Origin: Segetibacter aerophilus
GTDB lineage: Bacteria; Bacteroidota; Bacteroidia; Chitinophagales; Chitinophagaceae
Direction: 5' to 3'
NCBI RefSeq assembly: GCF_007991655.1
Contig: NZ_BJYT01000001.1
Span: 1-64,000 of the forward strand
DNA length: 64,000 nucleotides
Shown here: positions 24,253-49,230 of the stretch, piece after piece
Layout of the letters: each line of letters starts with the position of its first letter
Position numbering within the stretch: position 1 is the stretch's first letter
Made by a program: the position numbers and the translations under genes
The notes under the pieces: model-generated
Told to the model about the DNA's origin: nothing
Seen by the model: the letters and a program-made list of their open reading frames with translations, nothing else
Databases searched by the model: none

Positions 24253-24383
24253 CTCAAGCCGCTGGGCTTCGTTCTTGCAACGTGACTCCACCCGCTTGTT
24301 TCCGAAACTGCTGCGCATGTTTCGGAATGCCGTCGCTTCGCTCGGCACCCAACCGACTGATGTCACTTATGCAAGAACTGTTG
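24253..24383 (+). repeat. MITE-like dispersed repeat, copy A
   Basis: This 131-bp stretch aligns over its whole length with the reverse complement of 44941-45072. It contains GTTCTTGCA (24271-24279) and its exact complement TGCAAGAAC (24370-24378) as terminal inverted repeats about 108 bp apart. Homology runs a few bases past both ends. It lies between the aldo/keto reductase and a small unknown gene and codes for nothing convincing. Confidence 0.75.
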
Positions 24384-36273: not shown

Positions 36274-36344
36274 GAGCGCCAACTCAACTGTTCTACTTCC
36301 CGAAGTGTTTCATGAAATTTTTAATAACAGAATTTATATCAGAA

Positions 36345-37085
36345 ATGGAAATTAACATCAGCTCAAATGCGGAAGAATTAGGTAAGGCTGCAGGCACGGC
36401 GGCCGCAGAATTAATTCGCGGAGCCATCGCAGAAAAGAGAATCGCTAATATTATCTTAGCAACAGGTACCAGCCAGTTCCATACACTCCAACAACTAGTA
36501 TCCGATCCGGGTATTGACTGGAGCAAAGTAGTAATGTTTCATTTGGATGAATACATCGGTCTTCCGATAACTCATCCTGCCAGTTTTCGAAAATACCTGG
36601 AGGAAAGGTTTATACTAAAAGTCGAGCCTTTAAAGGAAGTTTTTCTGATCGATGGGGAAGGCGATCCAAAAGAAGAGTGTGAGAGACTTGGCAATTTAAT
36701 AACGCAATATCCCATCGATGTAGCCCTTGTTGGTATTGGTGAAAATGGTCATCTCGCTTTCAATGATCCGCCTGCTGATTTTAATACCGAAGACCCCTAT
36801 TTGGTAGTTGAATTAGATGAGGCTTGCCGCCGACAACAACTAAACGAAGGATGGTTTGAGTCTCTAGATGTTGTTCCGCGTAAAGCCATTAGCATGTCGA
36901 TAAATCAAATCATGAAATCTAAAAATATTATCTGCTCGGTACCCGATGAACGAAAAGCAACCGCAGTAAAAAATACAGTTGAACAAGCTGTTAGTAATCT
37001 TTACCCTGCAAGCATTCTTCAAACACATCCAGACTGCACGTTGTATCTTGATAGAGCTTCTGCCGGCGGTCTTTCAGGTACTTAG
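36345..37085 (+). CDS. NagB-family glucosamine-6-phosphate deaminase-like protein
   Basis: About 246 residues starting at [13 protein letters not shown]; an ATG at 36312 would add 11 residues. Family motifs: the phosphate-binding loop [26 protein letters not shown] (catalytic Asp position), and [20 protein letters not shown] with its catalytic His. It should convert glucosamine 6-phosphate, or an amino-sugar isomer, to a ketose 6-phosphate and ammonia; the loop after the first motif (SQFHTLQQL) departs from the usual GTP, so substrate preference may differ, as in galactosamine-6-phosphate isomerases. It lies 83 bp before the NahK-like kinase. Confidence 0.86.
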
Positions 37086-37168
37086 ATAAGTTGATAAAGG
37101 AGTATGAAGACGATCTGTTGTTCAAAATACTCTATCCGTTCATTTACTACATTTCACATCATTAAAGA

Positions 37169-38224
37169 ATGCTAGCTACCATATTAGGAAAGTACGGGTT
37201 AACCCCGGAAGAGTGGACGATCAAACCTTTTGGCGCAGGTCTTATAAATCATACCTGGCACTTCAAGAAAGATGATGAAGAATACATTTTGCAGCAGGTT
37301 AATATCAATGTTTTTAAGGACCCTTTCGCCATTTCAAATAATATTCGCGCTGTAGGTACTTACTTAAAGCAACATTATCCAGACTACATTTTTGTTACCC
37401 CTATACCATCTTCTAACAGCAGCGACTTAGTACAGTCTGATCAGGGGTACTTCAGGATGTTTCCATTTGTAAAAAATTCTGTTACCTATACAACATTAGA
37501 AAGCTCCGAACTGGCTTATGAAGCAGCCCAGCAGTTTGGAAGATTTTCGCACCATTTATCAGGCTTTGATGAAAGCGTTTTGCAGGAAACCATTCCTAAC
37601 TTTCATAACCTCACCCTTCGTTTCAAACAGTTTGAAGACTCTTTACGCGAGGGAAATAAAGAGAGGCTTGTACAATCTTCAGATGTTATTAAGCAGTTAG
37701 AGAAGCATCACTACATCGTCGATGAGTTTGAGCAAATCAAGAAAAACCCGCAATTCAAAAAACGTGTGATGCACCATGATACAAAGATCAGCAATGTGCT
37801 TTTCGACGAGCAAAACAAAGGCTTGTGTATCATCGACCTCGACACTGTAATGCCAGGTTTTTTTATTAGTGACATCGGCGATATGATGCGGACTTACCTT
37901 GCGGCAGCAAGTGAGGAAGAGACAGATTTTTCTGCCGTTCAGGTAAGAGAAGAATACTTTGTCGCTATTGTTGAAGGTTATTTATCAGAGATGGGTAATG
38001 AGCTTACAGCGGAAGAAAAAGGCAGCTTTATATACGCGGGCAAGTTTATGATTTACATGCAGGCAATTCGCTTCCTAGCTGATCATCTAATGAACGACGT
38101 GTATTATGGTGCTACCTACGAGGGACAAAATTTTAACCGAGCTGTCAACCAATTATACCTATTGAAAAGCTTAGAAGAACAAGAACAGCATCTCATGCAA
38201 AAGGTAAAACAAAACAAACATTAG
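37169..38224 (+). CDS. NahK-like sugar 1-kinase (aminoglycoside-phosphotransferase fold)
   Basis: 351 residues. N-lobe: GAGLINHTWHF (glycine-rich) and EYILQQVN. Catalytic region: RVMHHDTKISNVLFDE, matching the Brenner HxDxxxxN motif with catalytic Asp, then GLCIIDLDTVMPGFFISDIG (metal-binding Asp). This pattern and length fit N-acetylhexosamine 1-kinases, which phosphorylate GlcNAc or GalNAc at C1. With the NagB-like gene 83 bp upstream and a GH109-like enzyme convergent downstream, GalNAc/GlcNAc salvage is a plausible role. A strong hairpin lies beyond the stop. Confidence 0.85.
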   Translation: MLATILGKYGLTPEEWTIKPFGAGLINHTWHFKKDDEEYILQQVNINVFKDPFAISNNIRAVGTYLKQHYPDYIFVTPIPSSNSSDLVQSDQGYFRMFPFVKNSVTYTTLESSELAYEAAQQFGRFSHHLSGFDESVLQETIPNFHNLTLRFKQFEDSLREGNKERLVQSSDVIKQLEKHHYIVDEFEQIKKNPQFKKRVMHHDTKISNVLFDEQNKGLCIIDLDTVMPGFFISDIGDMMRTYLAAASEEETDFSAVQVREEYFVAIVEGYLSEMGNELTAEEKGSFIYAGKFMIYMQAIRFLADHLMNDVYYGATYEGQNFNRAVNQLYLLKSLEEQEQHLMQKVKQNKH

Positions 38225-38323
38225 TTTTTAAGGCTCCACCACAAGAATGAGAATAATAGCTGAATGATACAGGAGTGTTTATAAAGGGAGAATTTTGTTA
38301 CCAACTGAAGGGTCTCAAATGAA

Positions 38324-38347
38324 CATTGTTGTGTCACTCACTGGTAC
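38324..38347 (-). repeat. Dispersed 24-bp intergenic motif
   Basis: The plus strand reads CATTGTTGTGTCACTCACTG followed by GTAC, a diverged reverse-complement copy in the convergent spacer. Confidence 0.6.
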
Positions 38348-38370
38348 TGTTTGTTTTTCTATTGGGCAGT

Positions 38371-38412
38371 AATCATCAGCCAGGTTATCGATTATAAACC
38401 TGGCTGATGATT
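38371..38412. terminator. Strong inverted repeat between convergent genes, terminator-like
   Basis: AATCATCAGCCAGGTT (38371-38386) and AACCTGGCTGATGATT (38397-38412) are perfect 16-bp complements around a 10-nt loop. There is no clear T-run on either side, so it may act as a bidirectional transcription barrier or RNA 3' end rather than a classical terminator. The right arm ends 8 bp before the GH109-like stop. Confidence 0.7.
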
Positions 38413-38419
38413 AGAGACT

Positions 38420-39838
38420 TTATAATTTAACCAATGTATTTCCTCCACGTTCGAGGGAAATATCAACAGGCGTATTTTGTTTCCACATGCCTCCTGTAAA
38501 GTCGGGTACATCAACAGAACTTGACCTGTTAGCAACAGACTTTTCACTAAGAGGTGCAACGGAACTCCACAACGCAGCATCATACACATCCTGGTCAAGC
38601 GGCAAGCCGTTTCTTAAGCAATCAATCAGGCGCCAGTCCATTAAAAAATCCATTCCTCCATGTCCGCCCACTTGCTTCGCCAACTCACCTACTTTCTTCA
38701 CAATTGCGGGCTGGTATTTTTCTTCCAATGATTTAAACTCCTGCTCAGTAAGCCACTTGTCGTGACTTGAAGCTATTCTTGGTGTAGGATATTTTAAAGC
38801 CGATCCTTTGGAGCCACTGATCTTATGAATCCTTGAGTATACGTTAGGCGATGTAACATCATGCTGCACCATAATCGTTCTGCCTTTATTCGTTTTAATA
38901 ACCGTCGTATTCATATTACCGCGGTAAGGCTTGTTGACAAAAGGTTTATAGAACTCATCTTTTGCCGCCCGTTCTTTTGCTTCGGCCGCCATCATATTGT
39001 CGATGCTAGACATCGAAACCAGGTAGTCCATTTTATCTCCCCTGTTGATGTTCATTACCTGGCAGATAGGTCCAAGACCATGAGTTGGATACAAGTTTCC
39101 GTTTCTTCCAATATTCTCCTTCAGCCGCCACATATCATAGTAGCCGTCTTTTTTAAAATTCAGATCTAATAGGTAGTGGATATATGCTCCTTCAGTATGA
39201 ATTACATCGCCAAAGAATCCCTGCCTGGCCATGTTTAGAGTCATCAGCTCAAAAAAGTCGTAGCAGCAATTTTCAAGCATCATGCAATGCTTCCTTGTCT
39301 TTTCAGAAGTTTTTACCAGCTGCCAACATTCATCTAACGTTCTTGCTGCGGGCACTTCAATTGCCACATGCTTCCCTTGCTCCATCGCGTACACGGCCTG
39401 CGGCACATGCAGAGCCCACGGTGTAGCAATGTAAATAAGGTCGATGTCTTTCCGGTCACACATCTTTTTCCATGCATCCTTATCGCCGAAATAGTGGGTT
39501 GGCTTTTGCCCGGACTTATCAATCATTTTTTGCGCTTTCAGGACGCTCTCTTCCCTTATATCGCACAGGCCCATGATAGACACCCCGCTTAGCTTAGTCA
39601 TATTTGTAAGATGCGTAGGACCGCGCATACCGAGGCCAATAAAACCTACTCTCACATTTTCTATTTTAGGTGCAGCGTACCCTGACATATTAAAGCGGTC
39701 TGCAAAAAATTCGTTGGCACCCGGATTAGAAGGATGATCGCCTTCTGGTCCTTTGGAAAAACCTTTCATTACACCGCCTGCGACCCCAAGGCTTGCAAGG
39801 CTGGTGAGTTTTAAAAAATTCCGGCGATTATCTTTCAT
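38420..39838 (-). CDS. Tat-exported GH109-like Gfo/Idh/MocA enzyme (alpha-N-acetylgalactosaminidase family)
   Basis: 472 residues. The N-terminus has a twin-arginine signal (NRRNFLKLTSLASLGVAGG). Next come SNPGANEFFADRFNMSGYAA and the NAD-binding loop VRVGFIGLGMRGPTHL, which together are a signature of family GH109, where bound NAD cleaves the glycosidic bond by a redox elimination route. C-terminal HxGG-type motif QVGGHGGMDFLMDW and the ending DVPDFTGGMWK agree. The proven activity in this family is release of terminal alpha-GalNAc, as from blood group A antigen. It ends a minus-strand series after the amidohydrolase (73-bp gap). Confidence 0.88.
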   Translation of the reverse strand: MKDNRRNFLKLTSLASLGVAGGVMKGFSKGPEGDHPSNPGANEFFADRFNMSGYAAPKIENVRVGFIGLGMRGPTHLTNMTKLSGVSIMGLCDIREESVLKAQKMIDKSGQKPTHYFGDKDAWKKMCDRKDIDLIYIATPWALHVPQAVYAMEQGKHVAIEVPAARTLDECWQLVKTSEKTRKHCMMLENCCYDFFELMTLNMARQGFFGDVIHTEGAYIHYLLDLNFKKDGYYDMWRLKENIGRNGNLYPTHGLGPICQVMNINRGDKMDYLVSMSSIDNMMAAEAKERAAKDEFYKPFVNKPYRGNMNTTVIKTNKGRTIMVQHDVTSPNVYSRIHKISGSKGSALKYPTPRIASSHDKWLTEQEFKSLEEKYQPAIVKKVGELAKQVGGHGGMDFLMDWRLIDCLRNGLPLDQDVYDAALWSSVAPLSEKSVANRSSSVDVPDFTGGMWKQNTPVDISLERGGNTLVKL

Positions 39839-39911
39839 TGCTATGGCGTTTATTTTATTAATATTTTAAAAAATGCTCTAAAAACCTTTATTGTTATCCT
39901 ATCACCAATTA

Positions 39912-41042
39912 TCATTTTGTTCTACTAATTCCGGGAAACCATTTTTCTGCGTTAGTTCTATAAATTTTGTCAATAACTGTTTTCGGCAACTTTAACCCTT
40001 TGAACTCTGCATCAAATCCTGTTGAATGCATTGCTTCATCGTTTACAAAAAACTTCCAATCACGCAGCCAACTTTCGTGCACGCGCTTCTGCAATTCTGC
40101 TGTTTTTACGGGTGCACTAACTTCAAGATCTGTTGCATAAATAAGTCTATCCTGGTATTTAATAAAAAAATTACGAACCCCTTTCCAATTTGCTACCGCC
40201 TGGTATTGAAGGGCTGATAACCTTGCTGCCATATCTACCGCCATGTTAGGAAACTTGTCAAGTCTTTTTGCCAGTTCTTCTATACTCCATTCGAGGCTTC
40301 CTAAATGCGCTCCTACAAACCTCAGATCCTGATGCTTCTCCAGCATATGATCCCTTGCGCTTATTTGGTCCTCGTATGTTGGATACTCAGGATGCAAATA
40401 CATATGGTACTCGGGATGCTTGCTAAAATAGTTTTGGTTGCTTTTTATAGTCATTTGATCAAGAGGCAGCCATGCATTTTTTGGTTCACCAAGATGACCA
40501 ATTAAAGTGATTTTTCTTTTAGCAAGATAATCAATGATTGGATCAAATTTTTCATTGTCGATCATCACGAACTTGCCATTTTTATCCTTCAGCTCCATTC
40601 CCACGTTTTTCCAAACCTTTACTGCAATAGCGCCTTTGTCAAAAGATTCCTTCAGGTAGTTTAAAGCTTTTTGCTGCCATTCTTCACTTTCCCAATTATC
40701 TAATGAAAAGGTAGTCGCATATGCGAGTTGAGTAGGATTAGCTTTAACCAACTTCATTGCAATTCGCCTTTGCTCTTCAATAGGCGGGTAATAAGATGGG
40801 TTTACATTTACAGCAAGCAGCCGAAAGTTGTCTGCTCTGGCTTGTGCGACAAAGGTGGGATCATCAACGTTGAGGTGAACGTGGGTATCATACTTTATAA
40901 CATTTAGGAAATCATCAACGGAATAAAAGTCCTTTTCGCCAGCGCCAGTGTTTAAAGCTGCTTTATTTGCAGGACTACATTGCAGTAAAAAAACTGATAC
41001 TACAAGTAAACTCAGATATGGGACGAGGTTGTATAATTTCAT
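39912..41042 (-). CDS. Lipoprotein amidohydrolase (TIM-barrel, metal-dependent)
   Basis: About 376 residues from the ATG at 41042; an ATG at 41063 would add seven. The signal peptide ends in a lipobox (VVSVFLLQC). The amidohydrolase_2 fold shows DTHVHLNVDD (metal HxH), GAIAVKVWKNVGMEL, LIGHLGEPKNAW and LIYATDLE with the catalytic Asp. Expected location is the periplasmic face of the outer membrane. The substrate is unknown; relatives hydrolyse or decarboxylate lactones and cyclic compounds. It lies 68 bp after the DUF5009-like gene and 73 bp before the GH109-like gene. Confidence 0.85.
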   Translation of the reverse strand: MKLYNLVPYLSLLVVSVFLLQCSPANKAALNTGAGEKDFYSVDDFLNVIKYDTHVHLNVDDPTFVAQARADNFRLLAVNVNPSYYPPIEEQRRIAMKLVKANPTQLAYATTFSLDNWESEEWQQKALNYLKESFDKGAIAVKVWKNVGMELKDKNGKFVMIDNEKFDPIIDYLAKRKITLIGHLGEPKNAWLPLDQMTIKSNQNYFSKHPEYHMYLHPEYPTYEDQISARDHMLEKHQDLRFVGAHLGSLEWSIEELAKRLDKFPNMAVDMAARLSALQYQAVANWKGVRNFFIKYQDRLIYATDLEVSAPVKTAELQKRVHESWLRDWKFFVNDEAMHSTGFDAEFKGLKLPKTVIDKIYRTNAEKWFPGISRTK

Positions 41043-41110
41043 CTTGTTATAAGAATCGATCATTTAAAAATGCTTAAGCTTGAATGGCGATATCATTAAG
41101 CTTAGCCTCA

Positions 41111-42364
41111 TTAAATTTTAATAAAGATTTTTCTCTTATACATCCAATACAAGATCAGCCATAAAAAGAATAAAACGAGTGTGCCGTTTACCAGAGTTGA
41201 GTATGCGTCGCCAAACAAATGGTCATAAGTCTTTCCAAGATGAATATGCAGCGACTGAGAGATAACCGACCTCATCCCGCCATCGGCAAGTACGTATGCA
41301 GCAATTGAGTTCGCGCCAATTACCGTGAGAAAGAAGGACCAGCTTTTTTTGTTCTTAACATCAATGATCCAATAAAAAAAGGCAAGGAATAAAAAGCAGA
41401 TACCGCCGCTAAAAATGGTCCAGGCGGGTGTCCAGATACGCTTTACGATTGGGTTAATCCCTGTTACGTGCAACAAGACTCCTGCAACAATTAATGCAAT
41501 GCCGGTGGTAACAAAAAACTTTAATTTATCTCCCGATGAACTTTGCGCTTTTATAGCATCTCCAGCAAACAGGCCGATAATCATGGTTCCTAAAGTGGGT
41601 ATAAAACTAAGGGTAGCATACCCGCCACCATTTCTAAGAAACGGCTTTTCCCGGGGAAAAAGGTTTAAAAACCAGCGGTCGAAGGACCAGGCCAGGTTGG
41701 TATTCTTATTCCAGTGTGCTGCAAACCCGTGTAAGTTATGCTCCCAATCCGGAGTTACTCCTGCCGCTGTGTAATCAAAGGTTGCACCTGGTAGCGGGTA
41801 GAGCGCAAAGGCTAACCAATAACTAATAAGCAGAACACTGAGTGCTGTCAACCATACCTTCCTTGAATAAAAAGAAAGCAGCACTAAAAAGGTGTATCCA
41901 AGGCCGATTTGTGTTAGAGTGTCTTCGAAGGTAAAGTTCGTTTGCTTTGCATGCATAGATCGCAGGAAGATGCCTAGAAGTATGAGGATAAGAGAACGCT
42001 TGAGCGCATGCATTAACACGCTTCCGTGCGAGGCGCCGCTATTTTTTCTGCTGGCGATAGAGAAAGGCAAGACTACGCCGACAAGAAATGTAAAAGAAGG
42101 TTGAATCATATCATGAAGAGACAACCACGTCCATTCAACATGACTTTGATTAAATGCGAGAAATTGCCAAAAAAGGTTGCCAGGAAGCTTCTCAGAAACA
42201 GTTTCGAGTGAGAGGACTTCTGCCATCATCAATAACATTACGAAGCCGCGGTAAACATCCACCGAGGCTACTCTTTTAGAAGGCATAGCCGGATTAACAG
42301 CGGCACCTGTCGCAACAGTAGAGTCGGCATGGGGTGGAAATACAGCTTCAGCAGTATTGGCCAT
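41111..42364 (-). CDS. DUF5009 / HGSNAT-like membrane acyltransferase
   Basis: 417 residues with about ten hydrophobic helices. Family motifs: VASVDVYRGFVMLLMMAEVL at the first helix, SLHDMIQPSFTFLVGVVLPF with the conserved His, and NSIAAYVLADGGMRS near the end. The family includes human heparan-alpha-glucosaminide N-acetyltransferase, which passes acetyl from cytosolic acetyl-CoA to terminal glucosamine across a membrane. Here it would act at the inner membrane; acetylation of a periplasmic amino sugar is a reasonable but unproven reading. It is grouped with two amidohydrolases and the GH109-like gene. Confidence 0.86.
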   Translation of the reverse strand: MANTAEAVFPPHADSTVATGAAVNPAMPSKRVASVDVYRGFVMLLMMAEVLSLETVSEKLPGNLFWQFLAFNQSHVEWTWLSLHDMIQPSFTFLVGVVLPFSIASRKNSGASHGSVLMHALKRSLILILLGIFLRSMHAKQTNFTFEDTLTQIGLGYTFLVLLSFYSRKVWLTALSVLLISYWLAFALYPLPGATFDYTAAGVTPDWEHNLHGFAAHWNKNTNLAWSFDRWFLNLFPREKPFLRNGGGYATLSFIPTLGTMIIGLFAGDAIKAQSSSGDKLKFFVTTGIALIVAGVLLHVTGINPIVKRIWTPAWTIFSGGICFLFLAFFYWIIDVKNKKSWSFFLTVIGANSIAAYVLADGGMRSVISQSLHIHLGKTYDHLFGDAYSTLVNGTLVLFFLWLILYWMYKRKIFIKI

Positions 42365-43859: not shown

Positions 43860-44810
43860 ATGAAAATAAAAAAAGCTGTTATTACTGCTGCTGCCCGAGG
43901 TGAACGATTGTACCCGGTAGCCGACACTATTCAAAAAGCCATGCTTCCGGTAATTGATATTGATGGATTGCATAAACCGGTCATCCAGATTATTGCAGAG
44001 GAAGCTTTCTCCAGTGGCATCGAAGAGATCTGTATTATTTGTGCTCCCGGTGATGGCGACCGCTATATCAATGCTTTCAATTCTTTGAAAGATAACCTCA
44101 ACAACTCTTTCAAGCGAGTTGACTGGGCGAGGGCTCAAGCAGAAAAAATTGATTTCTTGTTGGGCCACATCCAGTTTGTTGAACAGAAGGAAACTTTAGG
44201 TTATGGTCACGCCGTTTATTGTGCAAAACAATTTGTTGGCAATGAACCCTTTCTTTTGTTGCTGGGCGATTACCTGTACGTATCTAACCTTTTGCAAAAG
44301 CGTTGCGCTCAGCAGTTGATAGATCTTGCTACGCAGGAGCAATGTTCTGTGTCTGCAGTTAACCCTACGATCGAGCACCAGATAACACGTTACGGAACGC
44401 TCACAGGAAAGCAATTACCAAGTCAACAGGGTGTTTACCAGATAGAAAAAATCATAGAAAAACCTTCGCTTAGTGTTGCTGAACTCGAGCTGCAAACGCC
44501 GGGTTTGCGGGTAGGTTACTATCTATGTTTCTTCGGTATGCATGTTTTTACTTCTGCTGTTTTCGAGTTGCTTGAAAAGCAAATGCAGCAACAGGCAACC
44601 AACATTTTGCTAACACCTGCATTGCAGGAACTGGCACAAAACGAAAAATATCTTGCGTTAGAAATGAAAGGAAGCCGTTACGATTTAAGTGGACGACATG
44701 GTTACCTCCGTGCTCAAGTAGCCCTCGGACTTGCGGGAGAAGCTCACAATGAAACACTCACCTCATTAGTCGAGTTACTTGCCGAAGCAAACGGAAGAAA
44801 TTTTAAATAA
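43860..44810 (+). CDS. GalU-like nucleotidyltransferase
   Basis: 316 residues of the sugar nucleotidyltransferase fold. The signature loop reads VITAAARGERLYPVADTIQK then AMLPVI; the usual GxGTR is GER, with Arg and the later Lys retained. PVIQIIAEEAFSSGIEEICI, TLGYGHAVYCAKQF and LLLGDYLY (metal Asp) are typical of UTP-glucose-1-phosphate uridylyltransferases. It should couple a sugar 1-phosphate to UTP or dTTP. The next gene in the same direction, 345 bp on, carries a second pyrophosphorylase-like domain, so two related reactions may be split between them. Confidence 0.85.
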   Translation: MKIKKAVITAAARGERLYPVADTIQKAMLPVIDIDGLHKPVIQIIAEEAFSSGIEEICIICAPGDGDRYINAFNSLKDNLNNSFKRVDWARAQAEKIDFLLGHIQFVEQKETLGYGHAVYCAKQFVGNEPFLLLLGDYLYVSNLLQKRCAQQLIDLATQEQCSVSAVNPTIEHQITRYGTLTGKQLPSQQGVYQIEKIIEKPSLSVAELELQTPGLRVGYYLCFFGMHVFTSAVFELLEKQMQQQATNILLTPALQELAQNEKYLALEMKGSRYDLSGRHGYLRAQVALGLAGEAHNETLTSLVELLAEANGRNFK

Positions 44811-44940: not shown

Positions 44941-45072
44941 CAACAGTTCTTGCATAAGGTACATCAGTCGGTTGGGTTTTGAGCGAAGGCGAAGGAATTC
45001 AGAAACATGCGTAGCAGTTTCTGGAACAAGGGGGTGGAGTCCTGTTGCAAGAACGAAGCCCAGCGGCTCGAG
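44941..45072 (-). repeat. MITE-like dispersed repeat, copy B
   Basis: Reverse-complement copy of 24253-24383. The 9-bp ends GTTCTTGCA (44946-44954) and TGCAAGAAC (45046-45054) are preserved exactly while the interior has diverged by substitutions and a few short indels. Confidence 0.75.
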
Positions 45073-45155
45073 CAATGCTATGAGCTAAGAACGGTTTTGA
45101 AAAACAAATACAGGTAGCTTTTATAAACTAACTGGAAATAAAACATAGAACACCC

Positions 45156-48100
45156 ATGAATGTTTTTATAGAAACAATCACATCAACAGAAACTTCAAAA
45201 CGCAATAGATCTTTTTTTGCTCTAAGCAAAAATCTATCATCAAAAGATCTGTTTAAAGCGCTGTTGGAATTAGACGGTTTTAGAAAATCAACACCCAACT
45301 TATACGATAAAGTAAGAGCAATCCTTTTCTTATATGCAGGCTTCCGGTTCTTCCTGCAGGAAGATAAAGGCACACCATCTGCAGGAAAAATACCTTACGC
45401 AGGATTTGAGGATTTACTAGCGAGACGCTTTGAACATGGCATCTCTACATTTCTAAAAGAGCTGGAAATAAACGGACCAAACGCAACCCTTTTTAGTGCA
45501 TTAGCGGAAAGCTACCACCACCTTTCTTTCCAGATTTTAGCAGACCAGGTAAGAAAAAGCGTGCGATCAAGTAAGGGTAACCAGTGGATGTTTAGAGTGG
45601 GGCATGAAGAAGAGCATCCTATAAGAATTCATGAGAAATTATTAAAGCGGCAGGAAGGCTCTTTATTTTATCCCGTCTTACACGAAAATACTTCTGTAAG
45701 AATGGATCTTACCCATAGCGGCTGGTCAGACATTTTCTTTTTGGGTATGGACTATCCCGAAGGAGCAAGGGTCATTAATTTATCTATTAACCTTGGTGTA
45801 TTTGGTCGTGATAAAGATATCAGGCCGCCATTACACAGTTATGTTCGTGTAATCACCGAGCCAGTTGTAAGAATAACCAGTATCGATCTAAACACCACTA
45901 AAGACATTCATGATCTTGCAGATCTGTTCAACTTTGGTAATGATTATCTAAGCCTTGTAAAAGCGGGCATTATTGCATCCGGATTAATACCGCCTTCTTT
46001 CGAAGGCACCAATCAATCTCTGCAAAATATCCTCGCTCGTATCGTTGCACCCGGGATGGGAATTGAAGTGGTCACGAAGGTGAATGACATTCCGAAAGGT
46101 TCCCGTTTTGCCGTGTCCACAAACTTGCTTGGTTCAATCATTAGCTTGCTGATGAGGGCAACAAAGCAAACGCAAAAACTTGAAGGTGGATTGGAAGAAA
46201 GTGAAAGGCGTCTCGTTGCTTCACGCGCTATACTAGGTGAATGGATTGGTGGCTCAGGCGGAGGATGGCAAGACTCAGGTGGTGTTTGGCCTGGCATAAA
46301 AGCAATCCAGGGAACTTTTGCAGGGGAAGGCGATCCCGAGTTTGGTATCAGCCGCGGAACGTTGTTGCCCAGACACAGGGTTTTGCAAGGCGAAGAAGTG
46401 CATCCCGAAATTGCTGAAAAGATTACTAAGTCACTGGTGTTAATGCATGGTGGTATGGCCTCAAATGTTGGTCCTGTGTTAGAGATGGTAACTGAAAAAT
46501 ATCTTCTACGTGGCGAAAAAGAATGGAGTGCTCGTCAACAGACCAACCAGATTTTTGATAACATACTTTCAGCCATCAAAGAAGGAGATATCAAAAAACT
46601 TGCAAAAAGTACCGAGGATAATTTTTTTGGTCCGATCAAGACAATTATTCCATGGGCTACTACTTACTTTACTGAGCAAATAATTGGAAAAGCAAAAAAG
46701 GAATTTGGTGAAGATTACTTTGGCTTCCTAATGTTAGGTGGCATGTCGGGTGGTGGTATGGGAATGTTTGTGAACCCGGGACAATACGAACGATATAAAG
46801 TAAGGGTACTGGACATTCTTCGCGAAACTAAAAACGAATTATCCTCCTCATTGCCTTTTGCAATGGAACCTGTCGTTTACAATTGGAGTATCAATGATAA
46901 AGGCACTTGGTCGACTTTGCATGAAGGTTCAGAAGCAATGATGCCCGAACAGTACTATGCTATTCATGTTTCTGAATTGGTTAGAAAAGATCCTGCAACT
47001 ATATCTTATATCCGCCGCGCTGAAATAGATTTTTTCACTACCCTTTGCGAGCAAAACAATCTTTCTTATCCGCTACTGAGAACCATTGTAAGCAATCTTT
47101 TTAAAGTTTCTGATCCGAGCTCACAGAGCAACAGGAGCAACGAGAATGAAAAAGCCGACAAGATAAAAAGAGAGAATGGCTTTGACTATATCCAACACGA
47201 AGAACTCCGTGAAGAATTGCAAAAAGGAAGAATTGGACTTTCACGGAATCGTCTGCCGGCCGAAACATCGATTGAGGATATACAGGAAGGCGATGTTGGA
47301 GTGATGCAAAATCTTCAATTAACTACCAAAGGCGAACAAGCTATTATAGATGGAAAAGTTGCGGTTATGAGCCTTGCTGCCGGCATCGGGACACGCTGGA
47401 CAAAAGGTGCTGGTGTTATCAAAGCAATCAATCCATTTGTCGAGATGGAAGGAGTGCATCGAAGCTTCCTTGAAATCCATTTGGCAAAAACGAAAAAGGT
47501 TGCGAAAAAGTACAATACTAACATTCCTCATATTGTCGCTACCAGCTACCTCACACATTCTGCAATCGATAAGAAACTAAACCAGACTAAAAACTTTGGC
47601 TATGGAGGTGGCGTATTTCTTTCAGAAGGACGATCAATTGGACAACGATATGTTCCAATGGAAAGAGACCTTCGTTTCTTATACGAAGAAATGCCGCAGG
47701 AAACGCTTGATGAAAACAAGCAAAAAGTACGCGACGCAGTTCGAACAACGATGATAGGCTGGGCAAAGTCAAAAGGCGAGGGATCAGATTATGTTGACAA
47801 CATTGCCGCTCAAAGATTTTCTCCTCTTGGTCACTGGTATGAAGTTTCAAACCTGCTGCGAAACGGAACCCTTGCACGGCTCTTACAACAGCAGCCCCAA
47901 GTGCAAACAATCATGTTGCACAACATAGATACATTAGGAGCTGATGTAGATCCTGCCGCATTGGAGTATCATTTACAATCAGGAAATGTACTAACCTTTG
48001 AAGTGATAGCCAGAAGGATTGAAGACCGCGGAGGTGGATTGGCGCGTGTAAATGGACGACTGCGTTTGCTGGAAGGTTTAGCTCAGCCAAGAGAGGAAGA

Positions 48101-48485
48101 CGAGCTTGCTTTGAGCTATTACAACTCAAACACCACCTGGATTCAAATTGATCCTTTATTGAAGTTATTTGGATTAACCCGTGAAGACCTACAAAAAGGT
48201 GATGAGGCACAACTGGCCAAAGCTGTTAGAAGTGTAGCGCATCGAATACCCACTTATGTTACAATCAAAGATGTAAAGTATCGCTGGGGTCATGGACAGG
48301 AGGACATTTACCCGGTTGCGCAAATAGAAAAGCTGTGGACCGATATGACCGCATTGACGGATCTAAAATGTGGATACCTGGTGGTACAAAGAAACCGCGG
48401 CCAACAAATGAAAGACCCGGCCCAGCTAGATTCTTGGGTGACTGATGGAAGTAAGGATTATGTAGAGGGCTTGTGCAAGTTTTAG
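45156..48485 (+). CDS. Fusion of fucokinase-like GHMP kinase and UDP-sugar pyrophosphorylase-like domains
   Basis: 1109 residues, cytoplasmic. The N-terminal ~620 residues look like an L-fucokinase-type GHMP kinase: VRMDLTHSGWSDIFFLG (181-197) in place of the sugar-binding RxxLxGGWTD, PKGSRFAVSTN (313-323) at the ATP loop, GGSGGGWQDSGGVWPG (365-380) matching the fucokinase GGGWQDQVGG, and LGGMSGGGMGMF (527-538). The ATP loop is degenerate, lacking the usual GLGSSS. From about 690 a UDPGP-family domain follows: SLAAGIGTRWTKGAG (740 on), VIARRIEDRGGGLARVNGRL and MLHNIDTLGADVDPA. Known FKP-type proteins have the pyrophosphorylase first. The likely task is making a sugar 1-phosphate and then a UDP-sugar; the sugar is unknown. 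Confidence 0.82.
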   Translation: MNVFIETITSTETSKRNRSFFALSKNLSSKDLFKALLELDGFRKSTPNLYDKVRAILFLYAGFRFFLQEDKGTPSAGKIPYAGFEDLLARRFEHGISTFLKELEINGPNATLFSALAESYHHLSFQILADQVRKSVRSSKGNQWMFRVGHEEEHPIRIHEKLLKRQEGSLFYPVLHENTSVRMDLTHSGWSDIFFLGMDYPEGARVINLSINLGVFGRDKDIRPPLHSYVRVITEPVVRITSIDLNTTKDIHDLADLFNFGNDYLSLVKAGIIASGLIPPSFEGTNQSLQNILARIVAPGMGIEVVTKVNDIPKGSRFAVSTNLLGSIISLLMRATKQTQKLEGGLEESERRLVASRAILGEWIGGSGGGWQDSGGVWPGIKAIQGTFAGEGDPEFGISRGTLLPRHRVLQGEEVHPEIAEKITKSLVLMHGGMASNVGPVLEMVTEKYLLRGEKEWSARQQTNQIFDNILSAIKEGDIKKLAKSTEDNFFGPIKTIIPWATTYFTEQIIGKAKKEFGEDYFGFLMLGGMSGGGMGMFVNPGQYERYKVRVLDILRETKNELSSSLPFAMEPVVYNWSINDKGTWSTLHEGSEAMMPEQYYAIHVSELVRKDPATISYIRRAEIDFFTTLCEQNNLSYPLLRTIVSNLFKVSDPSSQSNRSNENEKADKIKRENGFDYIQHEELREELQKGRIGLSRNRLPAETSIEDIQEGDVGVMQNLQLTTKGEQAIIDGKVAVMSLAAGIGTRWTKGAGVIKAINPFVEMEGVHRSFLEIHLAKTKKVAKKYNTNIPHIVATSYLTHSAIDKKLNQTKNFGYGGGVFLSEGRSIGQRYVPMERDLRFLYEEMPQETLDENKQKVRDAVRTTMIGWAKSKGEGSDYVDNIAAQRFSPLGHWYEVSNLLRNGTLARLLQQQPQVQTIMLHNIDTLGADVDPAALEYHLQSGNVLTFEVIARRIEDRGGGLARVNGRLRLLEGLAQPREEDELALSYYNSNTTWIQIDPLLKLFGLTREDLQKGDEAQLAKAVRSVAHRIPTYVTIKDVKYRWGHGQEDIYPVAQIEKLWTDMTALTDLKCGYLVVQRNRGQQMKDPAQLDSWVTDGSKDYVEGLCKF

Positions 48486-48560: not shown

Positions 48561-48774
48561 TAGAATATTTTCTTTTTTGCTTGCCCCCTGCAACAAAAAA
48601 AGGCCTCCGAAAACGAAACATCCTGTTTTCGGAATTGGTATTTCAATTAGTCTTTGTAGTACTGTGGTGAAGGACAGCGGAGCCTTGATGCTTTAAGTGT
48701 TTTCCGGCTCTTTTTTATTTCAGACGACAAAAAAGAATAAGCATGAAAACCTACTGTTGAAACCACAGTAGTAC
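48561..48774 (+). repeat. Direct repeat, copy 1 (~214 bp)
   Basis: Starts TAGAATATTTTCTTTTTTGC and ends ACCACAGTAGTAC. It contains the hairpin CCGAAAAC...GTTTTCGG (about 48608-48632) and near-perfect 13-bp inverted arms GTAGTACTGTGGT (48656-48668) and ACCACAGTAGTAC (48762-48774). Copy 2 is at 48955-49170. Confidence 0.75.
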
Positions 48775-48796
48775 AAAAGCTAAATCAAAGAATAAT

Positions 48797-48825
48797 GAAA
48801 GGAACGGGCTGTTATCGTTCCTTTC
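48797..48825 (+). terminator. Terminator-like hairpin in the repeat region
   Basis: GAAAGGAACG (48797-48806) and CGTTCCTTTC (48816-48825) pair perfectly around a 9-nt loop, followed by a T-rich stretch. It lies about 310 bp after the fusion gene stop. Confidence 0.5.
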
Positions 48826-48842
48826 TTGAATTTTCTTTGGTT

Positions 48843-48870
48843 ACTTTCTTTTTTTCAAGAAAAAGAAAGT
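48843..48870. repeat. Inverted repeat ACTTTCTTTTT / AAAAAGAAAGT
   Basis: Perfect 11-bp arms at 48843-48853 and 48860-48870 around TTCAAG. It looks like a mobile or REP-like hairpin; I know of similar motifs in related genomes only in general terms. Confidence 0.5.
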
Positions 48871-48954
48871 GACAAGCTGCACATAGGACTTTTGGGAAAA
48901 AGGAATCTGTTGAACATGGGTAAGTATGCGAGCATTTGTATTTTAATTCTTCTC

Positions 48955-49170
48955 TAGAATATTTTCTTTTTTGCTTGCCCAAAAAAGAAACAAAAAAAGG
49001 CCTCCGAAAACGAAACAGCCCGTTTTCGGAATTGGTATTTCAAATGTGCTTTTGTAGTACTGTGGTGAAAGACAGTTGTTCCTTGATGCTTTGAATGTTT
49101 TTCAGCTCAGTTCCATTTCAAAGACAAAAAAAATAAGCATTAAATACAAATGCTGAAGCAACAGTAGTAC
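48955..49170 (+). repeat. Direct repeat, copy 2 (~216 bp)
   Basis: Matches 48561-48774 in order: TAGAATATTTTC, the CCGAAAAC/GTTTTCGG hairpin, GTAGTACTGTGGT (49054-49066) and the closing ACAGTAGTAC. It has an extra ~10-bp A-rich piece near the start and scattered substitutions. It ends 60 bp before the Nudix gene. Confidence 0.75.
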
Positions 49171-49230
49171 ATAGCTTAGTCCCGGAACAATTAGTCGAAG
49201 CGTATAACAAGGAGTATTAATTTTGAAAGA

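Follow-up and report, generated by a model that had tools for sequence, protein, structure and literature searches.

The window analyzed here, positions 1 to 64,000 of contig NZ_BJYT01000001.1 of Segetibacter aerophilus (RefSeq assembly GCF_007991655.1, forward strand), carries a gene whose product is predicted to join a fucokinase-like GHMP kinase to a UDPGP-type pyrophosphorylase. Directly upstream lies a gene for a GalU-like sugar-1-phosphate nucleotidyltransferase, called the partner below. Profile searches and a structure model confirmed the two folds of the fusion and their order, kinase first. The partner was found beside the fusion wherever upstream DNA was available, including a clade in which it has lost the lysine segment of its nucleotide-binding loop. 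We give about an even chance that the pair is a two-protein nucleotide-sugar activation system in which the partner is the constant companion subunit. The features on which this reading depends are as follows.

43860 to 44810, + strand: partner, GalU-like sugar-1-phosphate nucleotidyltransferase, 316 aa (PF00483, TIGR01099)
45156 to 48485, + strand: fusion protein, 1109 aa (helical N-terminal region, fucokinase-like GHMP kinase, linker, UDPGP pyrophosphorylase)
45156 to 45671, + strand: all-helical N-terminal region, residues 1-172 (DSSP of the AlphaFold2 model)
45672 to 47015, + strand: fucokinase-like GHMP kinase domain, residues ~173-620 (NF009948, PDB matches to FKP, Foldseek 9iip)
45714 to 45752, + strand: sugar-site motif H[SC][GAC]WSDIFFLGMD, residues 187-199
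46092 to 46124, + strand: ATP loop P[KR]GSR[LF]AVST[NTS], residues 313-323
46257 to 46274, + strand: GGGWQD, residues 368-373, including D373
47346 to 48482, + strand: UDPGP-type pyrophosphorylase domain, residues ~731-1109 (PF01704, PDB UDP-glucose pyrophosphorylases, Foldseek UGP/UAP1)
47370 to 47423, + strand: nucleotide loop SLAAGIGTRWTKGAGVIK, residues 739-756, with R747 and K756 invariant in 87/87 rows

Domains and conserved residues of the fusion

The fusion is a single open reading frame (ORF) running from the ATG at 45156 to the stop codon ending at 48485, and no single Pfam or NCBIfam model spans its full length. The NCBIfam FKP model NF009948 aligned to residues 178-513 with 59.8 bits (E 1e-16), far under its curated cut-off of 721 bits. 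A separate, non-overlapping match to Pfam UDPGP (PF01704) scored 61.5 bits against a gathering cut-off of 22 bits, which by sequence places the C-terminal half in the UDPGP family. Residues 1-172 matched no Pfam or NCBIfam family. The Pfam GHMP models gave no match in the fusion at E ≤ 1, and the kinase assignment therefore depends on the fold together with the FKP matches. Sequence searches of the PDB, along with a profile search, matched FKP over residues 179-389 and UDP-glucose pyrophosphorylases over residues ~886-1005. An AlphaFold2 model, for which 55 of the 87 rows of the family alignment were used, had a predicted local distance difference test score (pLDDT) of 88.6 and a predicted template modelling score (pTM) of 0.88. 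When this model was submitted to Foldseek, FKP structure 9iit ranked first, followed by 9iip (fucokinase part, TM 0.81 over the target), with UGP and UAP1/AGX structures after FKP; WcbL was found at a target TM score (TMt) of 0.79-0.80, as expected of a GHMP fold.

An earlier note, made from the DNA letters alone, had proposed a kinase fold and a UDPGP fold in an order opposite to that of FKP. Profile matches, PDB matches, the AlphaFold2 model and Foldseek agree on both folds, each half matching the expected one, and the profile positions and Foldseek agree on the order. All five motifs it quoted occur as described: RFAVSTN at residues 317-323, GGSGGGWQDSGG at 365-376, GGMSGGGMGMF at 528-538, SLAAGIGTRW at 739-748 and HNIDTLGADVD at 922-932. 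Its further suggestion of a UTP-type second domain is borne out by the solved relatives of that domain, which are UTP enzymes, and UTP is the probable substrate of the UDPGP half.

Conservation was counted over 87 rows, the window and 86 relatives. Residues named for catalysis or sugar binding in the FKP structure paper (PMC11982464) were mapped onto the fusion through the PDB sequence alignment with FKP. The active-site residues mapped in this way are kept across the homologues. FKP Arg592, Trp599 and Asp601 correspond to R182, W190 and D192, and Glu751, Gln761 and Asp762 to E362, Q372 and D373, all invariant in 87/87 rows; Asp762 is the proposed catalytic base of FKP (PMC11982464). The metal-binding Ser719 is S321 in every row, while Ser720 is replaced by Thr. 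The sugar-site motif contains W190 and D192 and adds an invariant D199. Four other positions carry fixed replacements relative to FKP, each in 87/87 rows: Gly715 to Arg317, Gly717 to Ala319, Thr718 to Val320 and Thr602 to Ile193. The invariant Arg317 sits where the first Gly of GLGTSS would be.

As a control, 20 of 30 matches to FKP-like kinases were examined, 3 of them from Bacteroidota and 17 from Verrucomicrobiota genomes. GSG[LM]GTSS and GGW[TSA]DTPP were found in 20/20 of these versus GSR[LF]AVST in 87/87 fusions. The fusion does not have the glycine-rich ATP motif of the GHMP superfamily, which we take to be of the GLGSS type. The earlier note had seen a degenerate ATP loop and suggested that the kinase half might bind without turning over. 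A decaying pseudokinase was ruled out by the invariance of the loop: GSR[LF]AVST is fixed in every row and is therefore a family signature rather than decay. In addition, the fusion retains its metal Ser, its catalytic Glu and Asp and its phosphate Arg.

The possibility was considered that the kinase half is a sensor of a sugar or sugar phosphate that does not phosphorylate but controls the UDPGP half. The Arg of the ATP loop, standing in place of a Gly kept in all 20 sampled FKP-like kinases, is consistent with such a role. However, every row retains the proposed general base together with the metal Ser, the catalytic Glu and the phosphate Arg, a fuller set than a domain that only binds would have to preserve, and residues 179-390 are the most conserved of seven stretches compared, with 33% invariant columns. 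A sensor is judged unlikely, if still a serious competitor to a working kinase.

All 87 rows share R747, K756 and D925 of the pyrophosphorylase half, and K1041 and K1086 are present in the 86/86 rows that cover them. The fusion has the nucleotide-loop Arg and Lys and the C-terminal Lys of the UDPGP family. These five residues presumably have the roles of their counterparts in UGP and UAP1.

The GalU-like partner and its two clades

The partner scored 63.9 bits with PF00483 and 164.3 bits with TIGR01099, about half of the GalU cut-off of 326.8 bits, and its nearest solved structure is YngB (E 1.5e-36). By tblastn it was found directly upstream of the fusion, on the same strand, in 85/87 loci; in the two remaining loci the contig runs out, 36 and 0 bases ahead of the fusion match. 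In a second sample, none of it nearly identical to the first set (90.5% at best at the DNA level), the partner was upstream in 18/18 genomes, 17 from Verrucomicrobiota and 1 from Bacteroidota. Measured between the two matches, from partner end to fusion start, the distance was 349 bp in the window, the longest of the 85, and ranged from -6 to 233 bp in the other loci. Since a GalU-like gene is directly upstream in 103/103 loci with upstream DNA, the view in the earlier note of a self-contained enzyme is doubtful.

According to its description (PMC7961091), the predicted contacts of YngB are Lys28 and Glu29, among others, to uridine, Asp133 to Mg, Asp134, Gly172 and Glu191 to glucose, and Lys192 to the diphosphate. 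The YngB residues map to K26, A27, D137, Y138, G179, E200 and K201 of the partner, with the alignment numbering shifted by one. The partners fall into clade A (55 rows, the window included) and clade B (25 rows, labelled Verrucomicrobiota, Lentisphaerota, Chloroflexota, Acidobacteriota and some Bacteroidota). The segment with the nucleotide-loop Lys is deleted in 25/25 clade B rows versus 0/55 in clade A. Of the 17 Verrucomicrobiota partner matches in the second sample, 16 span this segment and all 16 are without it, as judged from the printed N-termini. A partner tree built without the loop columns placed the loss on one branch (Shimodaira-Hasegawa-like approximate likelihood ratio test, SH-aLRT, 100). 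In the fusion tree the 25 clade B rows group together, and the sole other row scored as lost (L047) is a truncation at a contig end. The alignments and trees indicate a single loss of the loop segment.

The model of a clade B partner had a pLDDT of 94.8, with YngB as the nearest structure at a query TM score (TMq) of 0.77 in Foldseek, and the protein is predicted to be well folded. Having lost the lysine segment of a working UDP-glucose pyrophosphorylase, it is most likely unable to catalyze. It cannot bind nucleotide in the usual way and yet was present in every locus with upstream DNA, which makes a non-catalytic role towards the fusion most likely.

Alternatively, the partner could be an independent, active enzyme, so that two pyrophosphorylases would serve two products or two nucleotides, its position next to the fusion reflecting use in a shared pathway rather than a complex. 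Clade A would suit this explanation, with Lys26 in 54/55 rows (Arg in 1), Arg16 in 54/55, and Asp137 and Lys201 in 55/55. However, the partner that lacks the Lys26 segment is kept in all clade B loci with upstream DNA. The position of YngB Glu29 is Ala, Ser or Gly in 55/55 clade A rows, so that the uridine contacts Lys28 and Glu29 expected of GalU do not occur together in the partner, and the glucose-contact Asp134 is Tyr or His in 80/80 rows of both clades. A second Asp, which has a metal role in RmlA, is Asn in 6/55 clade A rows and is replaced in 15/25 clade B rows (Asn in 14, Pro in 1). Asp137 and Lys201 are kept in 80/80. An independent enzyme is a rather unlikely explanation of the pairing.

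Distribution, neighborhood and the search for the sugar

A single match to the fusion was found in the S. aerophilus genome. Fusions were present in 7/296 Bacteroidota genomes, this one included, and in 18/194 Verrucomicrobiota genomes, in one of which (G566) the match is divided over two parts of a single open frame. At least 579 confirmed stretches came from a scan of genome contigs, and the best 80 of them were used. Ten phylum labels appear in the resulting 81-row tree (Bacteroidota, Planctomycetota, Lentisphaerota, Chloroflexota, Acidobacteriota, Verrucomicrobiota, Armatimonadota, Hydrogenedentota, Fibrobacterota and Ignavibacteriota), many of the relatives being metagenome-assembled genomes (MAGs) and several phyla being represented by one MAG each. 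Two MAG contigs labelled Williamsia (L028) and Thalassobius (L065), of Actinomycetota and Pseudomonadota, have fusions that nest among Bacteroidota, and these bins may be mislabelled. Two pairs of fusions in the first set are more than 97% identical.

The kinase and UDPGP halves are not split into separate genes. An unbiased search of 395 Bacteroidota genomes with the kinase half gave eight matches above 700 bits, 8/8 within open frames that are 1110-1156 codons long, and three FKP-like matches at 32-36% identity, with none intermediate between these and the fusions.

The genes around the pair were examined for a clue to the substrate. Within eight genes of the fusion, and leaving the partner aside, no neighbor cluster occurred in more than 8/87 loci, as determined from simple ORF calls and single-linkage clustering; operon-like neighbors of the pair vary from locus to locus. 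The neighborhood was rejected as a guide to the substrate because the neighbors are not conserved. This applies also to the amino-sugar cluster of the window at 36312-42364 (a NagB-like deaminase, an APH-type kinase, a Gfo/Idh protein with a GH109 C-terminal domain and a NagX-like membrane protein), which on present evidence is not linked to the pair. In a Hydrogenedentota locus (L048), a second GHMP kinase-like protein with the motif GGWTDT is encoded three genes downstream of the fusion.

Other sugar-activating genes in the same genomes were also counted. A galactokinase over the cut-off was present in 17/19 fusion genomes, and a galactokinase role for the fusion is disfavored for that reason. 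FKP-like kinases, called by kinase match and frame length with the first domain unchecked and at most three candidates per genome, occurred in 9/18 fusion-bearing Verrucomicrobiota versus 18/176 others (Fisher p 1e-4). No functional link was drawn from this enrichment, the first domain being unchecked and genome size uncontrolled. PF07959 proteins were found in 2/19 fusion genomes, and a second, separate UDPGP protein in 5/19. The idea that the pair replaces GalU was rejected. The S. aerophilus genome has no GalU over the cut-off, but this carries no weight because the phylum is mostly without one (a match at E ≤ 1e-55 in only 9/296 Bacteroidota genomes, 5 of them over the cut-off) and 4/18 fusion genomes have one.

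The galactokinases and the FKP-like kinases, taken together, point away from galactose and from a simple GDP-fucose role, and the substrate is probably not galactose. The kept fucose contacts Trp, Asp, Gln and Asp, together with the change of Thr602 to Ile, favor a sugar of similar shape. Our best guess, a tentative one that could easily prove wrong, is a sugar resembling L-fucose or D-arabinose.

The gap between the partner stop and the fusion start in the window is 345 bp and contains the following element.

44941 to 45073, no strand assigned: interspersed hairpin-forming repeat of ~133 bp (genome matches, predicted hairpin)

A second copy lies in the window at 24253-24383 on the minus strand. 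At least 17 further near-full-length matches were found in the genome when 40 of 447 candidates were scored; the 49 matches listed include the window copy and short ones, and several are at or near contig ends. A strong hairpin is predicted, and, judged by eye, the stems of the two window copies differ in ways that seem compensatory. No Rfam family matched in the window at gathering scores, the repeat included. Downstream of the fusion, at 48592-49171, another hairpin block occurs twice, ~397 bp apart (64 nt at 91% and 82 nt at 78%), with relatives elsewhere in the genome.

How the pair may work

The fusion would bind a free sugar in its fucokinase-like pocket and phosphorylate C1 with ATP. 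The sugar-1-phosphate would then be handed to the fusion's own UDPGP domain, where UMP derived from UTP would be added to give a UDP-sugar. Throughout, the GalU-like protein would act as the constant companion subunit. In clade B it is most likely non-catalytic, a structural or allosteric (nucleotide-sugar-sensing) subunit by analogy with GMPPA for GMPPB, and in clade A, to which the window belongs, it may still be catalytic. We infer both enzymatic activities, the complex and the regulatory role of the partner.

The phosphate donor is one place where this scheme could differ. The kinase half might be active with an altered donor site, using another phosphoryl donor or binding ATP in a changed geometry, with Arg317 taking over the phosphate contacts. 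Known GHMP kinases use ATP, which counts against this. A loop that is changed yet fixed in 87/87 rows would fit an altered site. Furthermore, the Ala at Gly717 still offers a backbone NH, Ser719 is kept and Ser720 has become Thr, the roles of these residues being those given for FKP (PMC11982464). We consider an altered donor site improbable.

Among known systems, FKP (NF009948; structures 5yys, 9iip and 9iit) is the most similar. It shares with the fusion the fucokinase-like GHMP fold, the fucose-contact and catalytic residues and, putatively, both activities on one chain. In FKP the pyrophosphorylase precedes the kinase, according to its description (PMC11982464), and the domain order of the fusion is the reverse. 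The pyrophosphorylase of FKP belongs to PF07959 and uses GTP, whereas that of the fusion is of the UDPGP type and gave no PF07959 match at E ≤ 1. The FKP loop GSGLGTSS and the FKP motif GGWTDTPP stand against GSR[LF]AVST and [GAC]WSDIFFLGMD in the fusion. No partner gene is known for FKP. Because the cut-off score, domain order, second-domain family and ATP loop of FKP are all missing, the fusion is not a member of that family; the system appears to resemble a salvage kinase/pyrophosphorylase in its working while standing outside it. That the fusion is simply a reordered FKP making GDP-fucose is highly improbable even though FKP is its nearest kinase, given a second domain that is UDPGP and not PF07959, an FKP-like kinase beside it in half of the Verrucomicrobiota fusion genomes, PF07959 proteins occurring as well in 2/19 fusion genomes, and a loop and sugar motif that differ in every compared row.

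A zebrafish protein with glucuronokinase and putative UDP-pyrophosphorylase activities is similar in joining a GHMP sugar 1-kinase to a UTP-type pyrophosphorylase. According to its description (PMC3938481), the pyrophosphorylase domain is N-terminal and of a short bacterial type, so that the fusion has the reverse order, and the kinase domain was found with plant glucuronokinase, not with FKP. The pyrophosphorylase needs UTP according to the abstract, and pyrophosphorylase activity could not be confirmed for the frog homologue (PMC3938481). Members of the UDPGP family (PF01704; eukaryotic UGP and UAP1/AGX) have the same fold as the C-terminal half and its key residues but are stand-alone proteins, whereas here the domain followed a kinase on the same chain in every row. 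GalU and YngB (TIGR01099) resemble the partner in fold, metal Asp, EKP Lys and, in clade A, nucleotide-loop Lys, and differ from it in the score, the glucose-contact position and the loop segment absent from clade B. For the GDP-mannose system, PMC11228364 describes GMPPA as a non-catalytic nucleotidyltransferase paralogue kept beside the catalytic pyrophosphorylase GMPPB. The likeness may extend to association and control by the partner; GMPPA and GMPPB are paralogues, whereas the catalytic candidate here is a kinase-UDPGP fusion. No characterized family with the kinase-first order was found among the titles and abstract openings listed by searches of open-licence PMC papers.

Several observations weigh against a two-protein activation system. 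Arg317 and Ala319 take the places of glycines of the GHMP loop, and an Arg at position 317 could block ATP. In the AlphaFold2 model, the pLDDT averages 59 over residues 191-200 (sugar-site block) and 75 over residues 311-320 (ATP loop) and is under 50 over the UDPGP nucleotide loop 745-752; the geometry of the active sites is therefore not established. Only five fusion positions differ in a fixed way between clades A and B, so that there is no obvious compensation in the fusion for the lost loop. Gene adjacency is no proof of a complex. The pairwise distances of fusion and partner correlate (r 0.93, 3160 pairs), but this is largely shared species history, with a correlation of only 0.36 across the two clades. 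Taking the best 80 of the 579 stretches favors full-length copies. With no third conserved gene beside the pair, there is no pathway context to name the product. Moreover, on a Hymenobacter volaticus plasmid (L088, 11035-15327) the partner is intact and the fusion lies in four frame-shifted pieces, so that a locus can lose the fusion and retain the partner. The broken fusion has no listed coding sequence, and the plasmid copy was dropped as an example of an intact travelling pair because of these frame changes.

It is possible, though we advance it tentatively, that the pair is an undescribed bacterial nucleotide-sugar machine. Its kinase-first Arg-loop fusion would be joined by a subunit derived from GalU, which in one old clade acts as a non-catalytic regulator, and the product would be a UDP-sugar new for these bacteria, perhaps one like UDP-L-fucose or UDP-D-arabinose. 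If so, kinase and pyrophosphorylase would have been combined for sugar activation in reverse order and with the pyrophosphorylase drawn from another family, and in bacteria a pyrophosphorylase system would have gained a non-catalytic nucleotidyltransferase subunit of its own. The fixed Arg-loop offers a clean test of how far the ATP site of a GHMP kinase can change. Identifying the sugar might bring to light a UDP-sugar donor among environmental Bacteroidota, Verrucomicrobiota and Planctomycetota.

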